A DNA stretch of 64,000 nt from Cellulosimicrobium terreum. Its GTDB lineage: Bacteria; Actinomycetota; Actinomycetes; Actinomycetales; Cellulomonadaceae. A program made the position numbers and the translations under genes. Positions 46,005-49,173 of this stretch are shown here, one piece after another (within the stretch, counting starts at the first letter, position 1; the number at the start of each line of letters is the position of its first letter). Location: contig JACYFD010000005.1 of assembly GCA_014803435.1 (NCBI GenBank), forward strand, positions 248,001 to 312,000, read 5' to 3'. The notes below the pieces were generated by a model that was not told the DNA's origin, made no database searches, and was given only the letters and a program-made list of their open reading frames with translations.

Positions 46005-47267
46005 TCAGGGGGCCAGACCGCGCCGCAGGTCGGCGGTCCGGCGCTCCACGGTGCGCCAGGCGTGCCGCCCGACGCCGGGGTGTGCGTCCCGGTCGACGTC
46101 CGCGAGCGCCGCGAGGAGGTCGTCGAGGGTCTGGGCGACGGCGCGTACGGCGCGTCGGCGTGGCAGTCCCCAGGAGGTGCCCTCGTCGACGAGGTGCTGG
46201 GCGGTGAGGCGGTCCATGTCGCGTTCGCCGGCGACGTCCATGGCGAAGACGCGTGAGGCGTGGTCGTGGTGCAGGTGCATGGAGACGTCGTAGGCGGGTG
46301 CGAGGTGCACGGTGCCGTCGTCGTGGCGCAGGAGGGAGATGTTCTTGGCGTGGGCGTCGGTGTTGCCGATGGCGAGGTTGAAGGTGGTGAGGGCGAGGAG
46401 GGGGTCGGGCCGGGTGCCGTCGTCGCGCAGGACGCGGGCGATACGGGTGAGGGAGGGCAGGGTGCGGCCGTGCTGGAACTTGCGTTCGGGGTCGCGGGTG
46501 TTGATGCCGAGGGCTTGGGCGGTGTCCTCCTGGTGGAGGCGGTCGGTGCCGTCCGGCCCGGGGATGCGGTCGTAGCGGGTGACGACGATGCAGCGTTCGC
46601 CGTCGAACTCGGTGACGTGGGCGTCGACGGTGGTGAGGCCGGTGCGGCGGGCGAGGTCGAGGCTGGCGGCCTCGGTGTCGACGAGGTCGGCGGTGGGTGA
46701 GCCGGCGGGGCGGGCGACCTTGAGGATGTGGGTGGTGGGGGTGGTGTCGTCGGCGCGGGTCCAGCCGTGCTGGTCGTGGACGAGGGTGATCTTGGGTTCC
46801 ATGCCGGGCAGGGAGCTGGTGAGGTGCTCGCTGCGGCCGATGCCGCCGGCTCGGGCGACGCCTTCGCGGAGGAGGCGGGCGATGTCGTGGTCGTCGAGGG
46901 GTTCGCGGTGCCGGGGTGGGCGGTGGGGGTGTCCGGGTGGTCGGAGGACGGCGGCGCCGATGGTGTCGCCGCCGTAGGCGGTGAAGAACGCGATGTGGTC
47001 CTCGGGGTCGACGCCTGCCTCCATGGCCATCTGGTCGCGTGCGCGGCCTTCGGGCATGAGCCCGTCGAGCCAGGCGGTGACGCGGGCGGGGTGGGGTGCG
47101 TCGTGGGTGGTCATGGGGAGCAGGTGGGAGAGGATGCGGGCGCCGTCGCCCCAGCGCGTGGTGGCGTCGTCGGTCCAGGTGAGGTCGACGCGGCCGTCGC
47201 GGCGGCGGGTGAGGTGGCCGGCGAGGGTGCCGTAGAGCGAGAGCTCGAGGGTGTCGGGGCGGGTCAT
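46005..47267 (-). CDS. hipA: HipA-family serine/threonine kinase toxin
   Basis: Toxin of a type II toxin-antitoxin system. In Escherichia coli HipA phosphorylates glutamyl-tRNA synthetase and induces dormancy. The 420 residues show the N-terminal couple-hipA domain, the SSLPGMEPK loop (151-159), ATP-binding Lys183 (ILKVARP), catalytic Asp304 in NTDAHAKN, and the metal-binding Asp327 in APAYDV, so the kinase looks intact. The ATG overlaps the hipB stop by four bases. The pair lies between rsmB and rpe, genes usually adjacent, which suggests insertion. Its target here is unknown. Confidence 0.92.
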   Translation of the reverse strand: MTRPDTLELSLYGTLAGHLTRRRDGRVDLTWTDDATTRWGDGARILSHLLPMTTHDAPHPARVTAWLDGLMPEGRARDQMAMEAGVDPEDHIAFFTAYGGDTIGAAVLRPPGHPHRPPRHREPLDDHDIARLLREGVARAGGIGRSEHLTSSLPGMEPKITLVHDQHGWTRADDTTPTTHILKVARPAGSPTADLVDTEAASLDLARRTGLTTVDAHVTEFDGERCIVVTRYDRIPGPDGTDRLHQEDTAQALGINTRDPERKFQHGRTLPSLTRIARVLRDDGTRPDPLLALTTFNLAIGNTDAHAKNISLLRHDDGTVHLAPAYDVSMHLHHDHASRVFAMDVAGERDMDRLTAQHLVDEGTSWGLPRRRAVRAVAQTLDDLLAALADVDRDAHPGVGRHAWRTVERRTADLRRGLAP

Positions 47268-47518
47268 GGGCGGCTTTCGAGGCGCATGGTCAGGTCGAGC
47301 TCGCCGAGCACCTCGAAGAGCCGGGTGATGTAGAGGTTGTCGACGCCGTTCTCGAGCTCGGAGAGGTACTGGCGGGTGATGCCGAGCTCGTCGGCGAGCT
47401 GTGCCTGGGTGAGTCCTCTGGTGCGTCGTGCGCGGCGGACGGTGTCGCCGATGTCGCGGGCGCTGCGGGTACTGCGGGCGCTGCGGGTCGCGCCCGGTAC
47501 GGGTGTGGGTGCTGGCAT
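47264..47518 (-). CDS. hipB: HipB-like antitoxin, XRE-family regulator
   Basis: An 84-residue DNA-binding antitoxin. A basic, Ser/Arg-rich N-terminal tail of about 22 residues is followed by an XRE helix-turn-helix (VRRARRTRGLTQAQLADELGITRQYLSELENG, residues about 27-58) and a short C-terminal strand region. It should bind HipA and repress the operon through the repeats upstream. CGGAGGCGAC precedes the ATG. The gene comes first, antitoxin before toxin, as usual. Confidence 0.92.
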   Translation of the reverse strand: MPAPTPVPGATRSARSTRSARDIGDTVRRARRTRGLTQAQLADELGITRQYLSELENGVDNLYITRLFEVLGELDLTMRLESRP

Positions 47519-47544
47519 GTCGCCTCCGCCGTGGGACGTCGTGT

Positions 47545-47609
47545 CGTACTATCCTGACGTCCACCATAGCGTCATATCCTGACATCGGCCAGATCGTGAT
47601 ATCCCGACA
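47545..47609 (-). promoter_or_regulatory. HipB operator array: three 15-base repeats at 25-base period
   Basis: Copies of CGTNNTATCCYGACR start at 47545, 47570 and 47595, exactly 25 bases apart. The middle copy contains the inverted repeat GTCA-N5-TGAC around TATCC; the other copies keep it partly. The array ends 26 bases before hipB and reaches to 41 bases from the rsmB stop, so it must cover the hipBA promoter. E. coli HipB sites also have a TATCC core. Confidence 0.75.
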
Positions 47610-47649: not shown

Positions 47650-49173
47650 TCAGGCCGACGGGCGGCGCCGCAGGAGCGTCAGGTGCATCGCGTCCGTGCC
47701 GTGGACGTGCGGCCACAGCTGCACGTCCTGGCGGTCGCCGAGCTCGATCGCGTCCCGTGCCTCGGGACGCACGACCCCGCGGACCACGGCCGGGGCGTCG
47801 AGGATCTCGACGTCGTCACGGCGGCGCAGGACGTCGCTGACGACGACCTGCGTCTCGGCGAGGTGCGGGGAGCACGTCACGTAGGCGACGACGCCTCCGG
47901 GCCGGACGGCGTCGAGCGCCGAGGCGAGGAGGTCGCGCTGGAGACCGGTGAGGGTCGCGACGTCGCCGGGCGTGCGCCGCCAGCGCGACTCCGGCCGACG
48001 TCGCAGCGCACCGAGCCCCGTGCACGGCGCGTCGAGCAGCACGCGGTCGTACGCGGCGGGCTCGTCCGTCCCGACCTCGCGCCCGTCCCCGGTCCGCACC
48101 GCCTCGACGGCGTCGGCCGGGACGGCTGCGAGCGCCTGCGTGACGAGCCGGGTGCGGTGGGGCTGGACCTCGTTGGCGACGAGCCGGGCGCCACGCTGGG
48201 CCGCGAGCGCGCCGAGGAGCGCGGCCTTCCCGCCGGGTCCTGCGCACAGGTCGAGCCAGCGCTCCCCCGTTCCGCCAGGGGTGGAGAGCGGAGCGGCGGC
48301 GAGGGCGAGGGCGACGAGCTGGCTCCCCTCGTCCTGCACGCCGGCGCGGCCGTCGCGGACGGCCCCGTAGGCGCCGGGGTCGCCGGTGTCGAGCGTGAGG
48401 GCGGTGGGTGCCCAGCGGGCGGGGTGGACCCGGTCGTCGGCGGCGAGCTCGTCGGGGTCGACGAGGCCGGGGCGTGCGACGAGGGTGACGCGCGGGGCGT
48501 CGTTGTCCGCGGCGAGGAGGTCGGGGAGCTCGGCGGTGTCCCGCCCGGTGCCGGCGAGGGCGTCGCGCAGCGCGCGCACGATCCACGCGGGGTGGGACCG
48601 GGTGGTGGCGAGCGCGGTGGTCTCGTCGGGGGCGTCGGCGGCGAGCTGTTCGAGCCAGTCGTCCAGGGGGGTGCGGGCGACGCGGCGCAGGACCGCGTTG
48701 ACGAGCTGGGCGCTGCCGGCGCCGGTGCGGGCGCGTGCGAGGCCGACGGTCTCGGAGACGGCGGCGTGCTGGGGCACGCGCATCGCGAGGAGCTGGTGCG
48801 CGCCGAGGCGCAGGACGTCGAGCACGGGGCGGTCGAGGCGGTCGAGCGGCCGGTCGAGGCAGCGTTCGAGGATCGCGTCGTAGCGGCCACGCAGGCGCAG
48901 GGTGCCGTAGGCGAGCTCTGTGGCGAACCCGGCGTCGCGACCGCGGACGCCGCGCTCGCGCAGGAGCGGGGGCAGGACCAGGTTGGCGTAGGCGTCGGAC
49001 CCGTCGACCTCGCGCAGGACGTCGAACGCGGCGTTGCGCGCGGGGTCGGTGCCCTTGCGGCGGTCGGCGGGTGCCACGGACGACCGGTTGTCCTCGCCGC
49101 GGCTGCGTGCGGCGCCGCGCTGGCGGCCGCGGGCGTCGCGGCGGGGGTCCCGGTTCCGGTCCTGCGCGTTCAC
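47650..49173 (-). CDS. rsmB: 16S rRNA (cytosine-967-C5)-methyltransferase
   Basis: SAM-dependent rRNA methyltransferase of 507 residues. An N-terminal NusB-like RNA-binding domain (residues about 45-175: [22 protein letters not shown] to the NAVLRRVAR segment) precedes a Rossmann methyltransferase domain. That domain has [19 protein letters not shown] (SAM site), [10 protein letters not shown] with the first catalytic cysteine and [12 protein letters not shown] with the second. The GTG start overlaps the fmt stop by four bases. The first 40 residues are a basic, low-complexity extension. Confidence 0.95.

Follow-up and report, generated by a model that had tools for sequence, protein, structure and literature searches.

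What are the three short repeats that precede the hipBA genes of Cellulosimicrobium terreum, and do they call for a mode of HipB binding of their own? We analysed a 64,000-nucleotide stretch of this genome (hereafter the window), in which an initial annotation had noted a 15-base sequence, CGTNNTATCCYGACR, three times in one direction and with an exact 25-base period. It had likened the TATCC core of each copy to the hip operators of E. coli, and had read the same-direction arrangement as a sign of a cooperative HipB filament or stack with a geometry different from the classical system. Our analysis corrects this claim: we give a probability of about 90% to the reading, drawn from sequence comparison, that the repeats are tandem 18-bp operators through which HipB or HipBA would repress its own hipBA operon, sites of HipB style in the classical frame.

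The hipBA operon and its upstream repeats

The window carries a HipBA type II toxin-antitoxin operon on its minus strand, in which hipB comes first and is coupled to a gene for a HipA-domain kinase. hipB (47264..47518) encodes an 84-aa predicted antitoxin of the Cro/XRE helix-turn-helix type (Pfam HTH_3, 5.8e-12), and its stop codon overlaps the start of hipA (46005..47267) as ATGA. The 420-aa product of hipA is a predicted kinase-type toxin with Pfam matches to HipA_C (7.5e-41) and Couple_hipA (2.7e-13), each above cut-off, and also exceeds the cut-off of TIGR03071. Direct reading of the same strand places a GGAGG ribosome-binding sequence (47523..47527) before the ATG of hipB. The solved chain nearest to HipB is 4z5h, 'Antitoxin HipB' (6.7e-8), and alignment to HipB chains locates the recognition helix at ITRQYLSELE. 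HipA is nearest to chains 4pu5 and 4pu3 (1.5e-22), which we take to be HipA of Shewanella oneidensis. HipB scored under the curated NCBIfam cut-offs of TIGR03070 (51.4 against 71.65 bits) and NF007271 (33.6 against 79); the gene is filed as HipB-like, a model cut-off being no functional definition.

The repeats lie between hipB and the stop codon of rsmB at 47650. Exact plus-strand matches to CGTNNTATCCYGACR begin at 47545, 47570 and 47595, in steps of 25 and 25 bp, just as annotated. Two details needed correction: hipBA runs on the minus strand, and the repeated unit measures 18 bp rather than 15. The full units occupy 47542-47559, 47567-47584 and 47592-47609, with the 15-mer making up 15 of these 18 bp, and the array stands 24-91 nt upstream of hipB, each operator being assigned to hipB's strand. 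Throughout the 4.49-Mb genome CGTNNTATCCYGACR occurs without mismatch only at these three places, and with one mismatch at eight further, scattered ones. When up to two mismatches were allowed, the window held 4 matches against 6.05 expected. Since such loose matches are not rarer than chance, the signal lies in the clustering and exactness of the copies, not in the loose pattern.

A held-out motif and the anatomy of the sites

We trained a symmetric 18-bp motif on the regions upstream of hipB in 16 other Cellulosimicrobium genomes, with the window excluded; width and symmetry were picked after the relatives had been viewed, and these two settings were not blind. The resulting motif is a palindrome, TGTCR-N8-YGACA (consensus TGTCAGGATATCCTGACA, 16.2 bits), whose N8 spacer has a conserved AT centre. 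When the 64-kb window was scanned with it, the three highest scores (18.9, 15.7 and 15.5 bits) fell on the three copies and the next reached 10.5 bits. A score of 15.5 bits corresponds to about 1.2e-6 per position under the base composition of the window.

Read on the minus strand, the distal operator (TGTCGGGATATCACGATC, 47592..47609) scores 15.7 bits and the middle one (TGTCAGGATATGACGCTA, 47567..47584), which overlaps a possible -10 box, 15.5 bits; each has an intact left half and a degenerate right half. The proximal operator (CGTCAGGATAGTACGACA, 47542..47559), at 18.9 bits, fits YGTCR-N8-YGACR in both halves. From distal to proximal, the left halves TGTCG, TGTCA and CGTCA all fit YGTCR; among the right halves (CGATC, CGCTA, CGACA) those of the distal and middle sites have decayed. 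The intact halves all share one orientation, and the copies therefore resemble direct repeats. They had been described as same-direction repeats instead of palindromes; the sites are in fact 5-N8-5 inverted repeats as in E. coli, one side of which is degenerate in two of the three copies of this species.

The TATCC core does not bear the comparison made with it. It is the complement of GGATA at operator positions 6-10, within the N8 spacer, and is thus out of register with the E. coli half-site that it resembles. The half-site is TGTCR/YGACA, and the symmetric motif from the 16 relatives rules TATCC out in that role. By make-up the repeats form a putative HipB operator array of tandem 18-bp 5-N8-5 palindromes before hipB, with two of the right halves degenerate in the window; with TGTCR as half-site they fall outside the E. 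coli type of hip operator, which is defined by TATCC.

Conservation in Cellulosimicrobium

The initial annotation had singled out close hipBA homologues as the place where the repeats might prove absent. They are present there, and its reading of operator-like sites before hipBA is supported. A hipB orthologue was present in all 17 genomes of the genus (best E value 2.6e-23 or better), adjoined by a hipA match at every locus (split in two at L023 and L024), and sites were found upstream of hipB in 17/17 genomes, three in 15 of them and two in the other 2. Loci L010 and L011 encode the HipB most similar to that of the window (76%), yet show only two sites each. In these upstream regions hipBA directly follows the 3' end of rsmB (17/17), a position that is unusually constant for a toxin-antitoxin pair.

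Mean pairwise identity in eight loci with steps of 27 and 26 bp was 0.89, 0.88 and 0.80 for the sites, as against 0.46 and 0.54 for the spacers and 0.35 and 0.42 for the flanks. The EM log-likelihood of the motif was 449.8, compared with 23.5-34.7 in eight letter-shuffled sets, which yielded 0 arrays. A coding control, the conserved 3' end of rsmB, reached 756.4, above the operator value, and we dropped the likelihood as a standalone proof. Because it is not specific by itself, our argument is built on the held-out scan, the palindromy and the contrast between sites and spacers. Motif, conservation, position, frame and step of the sites are established here.

Comparison with known hip systems

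In E. coli K-12 MG1655, four sites match TATCC-N8-GGATA exactly; they stand at -134, -106, -67 and -39, in steps of 28, 39 and 28 bp. HipB is described as binding four sites cooperatively (PMC3376134, PMC3920265). The window resembles this system in its 18-bp inverted repeats of 5-N8-5 form, several of them in tandem before hipB, the E. coli steps within a pair being 28 bp (PMC3376134). It differs in its half-site, TGTCR in place of TATCC, and in having three sites at even 25-bp steps, whereas the four of E. coli form two pairs at a distance of 39 bp. The idea of a geometry different from the classical system thus does not hold: the 18-bp frame is that of E. coli, and steps of 25-29 bp are near its 28. 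As judged from its letters, the putative autorepression array is a further case of the known HipB-type arrays, in the classical frame.

In Legionella, the HipBST system has operators O1-O3 upstream of hipB, each about 18 nt long; two of them have broken symmetry, and gel shifts show that these are bound all the same (PMC10653801). The window likewise has three sites of this length before hipB, two of them asymmetric; six-base half-sites, 53-bp gaps and a three-gene make-up set the Legionella system apart (PMC10653801). Since the broken-symmetry sites of Legionella are bound, the degenerate sites of the window are, by analogy, plausible as operators. The Caulobacter hipBA1 and hipBA2 promoters also carry serial inverted repeats, at intervals that are said in PMC7029023 to fit the higher-order HipBA-promoter complex of E. 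coli. The same paper cites work on E. coli that connects persistence with the dimerisation of HipA in promoter complexes of this kind.

Half-sites and steps across recognition-helix groups

Extra loci came from a family-wide search of 221 genomes and from 20 retrieved stretches, three of which (L068, L083 and L087) were excluded; in L083 a perfect-palindrome search and a motif scan found no array. The resulting 47 loci fell into five groups by recognition helix. Each group motif was trained on the same loci that were scanned, only the window test being held out, and the loci are related by descent; the group counts therefore describe and do not test.

The Cellulosimicrobium group (helix ITRQYLSELE or ITRQYVSELE) has the half-site TGTCR and the site numbers given above. 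Of the 18 genomes of the Isoptericola group (helix LTRQYVSE), 13 had a strong match; the half-site is TGTCA-like, and all 13 loci have sites (three in 12 of them) and a hipA match beside hipB. Half-sites TGTCA, TGTGC and TGTAA occur in the (S/T)RRY..EIE group, with three sites in 7/7 loci, and TGNGC in the DRRYVYQ group, with sites in 6/6 (five with three, one with two). The four loci of the DRRV(L/P)QR group have a GGCGNC-like half-site, two with three sites and two with two. A hipA match lay beside hipB in 15 of the 20 retrieved stretches, which often end within hipA. A motif-free search for perfect 5-N8-5 palindromes found few of them in the groups outside Cellulosimicrobium.

Between groups whose recognition helices differ, the half-site letters change, but the 18-bp frame and a step of about 27 bp persist. 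The 88 steps in the 47 loci comprised 43 of 27 bp, 20 of 26, nine of 28, nine of 29, six of 25 and a single one of 20, which places 87/88 between 25 and 29 bp. The exact 25-base period holds for the window and fails across its relatives, E. coli itself having 28-bp steps; given the spread over 47 loci, we rejected it as a special feature.

Promoter and operator register

Promoters were called with generic -35 and -10 matrices of our own. In 39/47 loci (38/43 in the first four groups) the -10 of the top-scoring promoter coincided with operator positions 9-14, and in 32/47 (31/43) the operator concerned was the second site found. By group, the coincidence was seen in 14/17 loci of Cellulosimicrobium (10 at the second site), 13/13 of Isoptericola (11), 7/7 of (S/T)RRY..EIE (7), 4/6 of DRRYVYQ (3) and 1/4 of DRRV(L/P)QR (1). 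Typical relatives have a TAACCT or TATCCT core as -10 and, 17-18 bp earlier, a -35 supplied by the preceding site's right half (TCGACA or GTGACA, for example). In L012 and L013 the operator bearing the -10 is the first of three found; ahead of it, L013 has a site-like stretch at 5.7 bits and L012 nothing above 4 bits. Some of the top promoters are weak, for example those of L017, L024 and L081, and the operator-linked -10 score is partly built in, the operator core being rich in AT amid GC-rich DNA. In many relatives, array and promoter appear to be fused, with the operator core doubling as a candidate -10. A -10 in the core together with a -35 in the preceding half-site would couple the length of the promoter spacer to the 27-bp step.

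The register of the relatives is absent in the window and in L010, L011, L076, L079, L082, L085 and L086. In the window the middle site reads TATGAC at that register, and because the step is 25 bp, the relatives' arrangement would leave a spacer of 15 bp. A weak candidate -10, TATGGT (47563..47568, minus strand), stands with TGGCCG (47586-47591) at a spacer of 17; its score of 6.6 is not decisive, and a rival pair on the same strand, ATGACG-16-GATAGT (47570-47575 and 47548-47553), scores slightly more at 7.1. The promoter of the window is uncertain.

Proposed mechanism and rival explanations

Binding of HipB to the sites, cooperativity, repression and contacts between neighbours are features that we infer from E. 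coli HipBA. A HipB dimer, alone or as part of the HipBA complex, would read one inverted repeat and cover the hipBA promoter and start region, so repressing its own operon, and falling HipB would release the repression. Tandem sites may let neighbouring complexes bind jointly, as in E. coli HipBA, and in relatives with a promoter-fused array HipB and RNA polymerase would be mutually exclusive. At 10.5 bp per turn, 25-29 bp amount to 2.4-2.8 turns of B-DNA; neighbouring dimers would therefore not lie on one face of straight B-DNA, and if they touch at all, HipA or bent DNA is the likelier bridge.

Could HipB instead assemble into a filament or stack, nucleated by same-direction half-sites with an exact 25-bp period and different from classical operators? 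The degenerate right halves of two copies, which give the window species its direct-repeat look, and the steps of exactly 25 and 25 bp would suit such a structure. We consider it very unlikely nonetheless, since members of the genus have palindromes at the same place, many fitting in both five-base halves, the step varies from 25 to 29 bp, E. coli has the same frame with 28-bp steps, and the relatives with the most similar HipB show two sites only.

The sites might also belong to another regulator, for example of the XRE type, that has the same half-site and controls hipBA from outside. Similar TGTC..GACA palindromes do occur elsewhere in the genome, one of them scoring 21.4 bits, but the sites are found at hipB in 17/17 genomes, their half-site letters vary between HipB groups, and a second HipB (L026) has an array of its own in different letters, all of which makes an outside regulator distinctly unlikely. 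Chance, or decay into a non-functional remnant, has a probability that we put close to negligible: two half-sites have degenerated, the 15-mer is no rarity once two mismatches are tolerated and the window is without a confident promoter, yet the three best motif scores in 64 kb fall exactly on the copies, and at the level of the genus sites are conserved over spacers.

For the putative operators of hipBA autorepression, the promoter-linked lattice and the drift of half-sites are the more interesting parts. A wider proposal, which we regard as possible rather than probable, is that actinobacterial HipB arrays form a near-fixed lattice of 18-bp palindromes at steps of about 25-29 bp with promoter boxes inside, and that half-sites drift with the recognition helix, so that paralogous hipBA operons stay insulated. 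The lineage of the window would then be a natural variant, with a step of 25, decayed right halves and a broken promoter register, in which one could ask whether lattice or half-site is more important for cooperative repression. The 47 loci in five recognition-helix groups make a comparative set for changes of HipB specificity against constant array spacing, and the same set bears on why HipB sites lie about 2.5 helical turns apart.

Related palindromes and HipB-like loci elsewhere

The 21.4-bit match to the HipB motif, the palindrome TGTCAAGTATTCCTGACA (L111, 996-1013; G000:C7:47195-47212), lies near the start of a small membrane-protein-like open reading frame; it is a candidate for a second HipB target or for the site of another XRE regulator. 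The genome has 31 matches to the pattern YGTCR-N3-WW-N3-YGACR and 3 to its reversed form. We dropped a genome-wide regulon based on these numbers, the reversed pattern differing in codon-like make-up, and likewise a tandem-pattern comparison. Pairs of GTCAAN6TTGAC palindromes at 27-28 bp steps, present in the window's genome (L112, from 958) and in G001-G007 among the matches listed, look like the operator of another regulator.

At L026 (1438-1509; G002:C19) there is a second HipB, 44% identical to that of the window and followed by a hipA match; the array here consists of three TGTC..GAC palindromes with a CGTA core, 27 bp from one to the next, in letters unlike those of the main array. The window's own genome has a further HipB-like match of 42% identity (L027, G000:C8:142784-143023).

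A class-wide check drew on the 30 loci returned for TIGR03070 among 296 genomes, from which 17 were picked by hand, mostly because their open frames were short; the pick skipped L131 (199 aa), which is shorter than the included L137 (219 aa), and 2/17 (L116 and L130) had no helix-turn-helix match. Pairs of 18-bp palindromes at 26 or 28 bp exceeded the 95% level of 60 shuffles in 6/15 loci (L119, L120, L121, L128, L129 and L142); the other 9/15 had none above the shuffle level, which L114, L117 and L132 equalled. No hipA match was found at L121, L118 and L137. The 26/28-bp palindrome lattice is thus common, not universal, in class-wide HipB-like loci. In a HipB-like branch comprising L114, L115, L117 and L118, palindromes of the GCACGATCGTGC type stand upstream, one or two per locus and widely spaced, with no 26-28 bp lattice. 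Upstream at L129 (G352:C1), three identical TGTGCGCGTACGTGCACA palindromes follow one another in 28-bp steps, with a similar fourth after them and a hipBA-like pair downstream.
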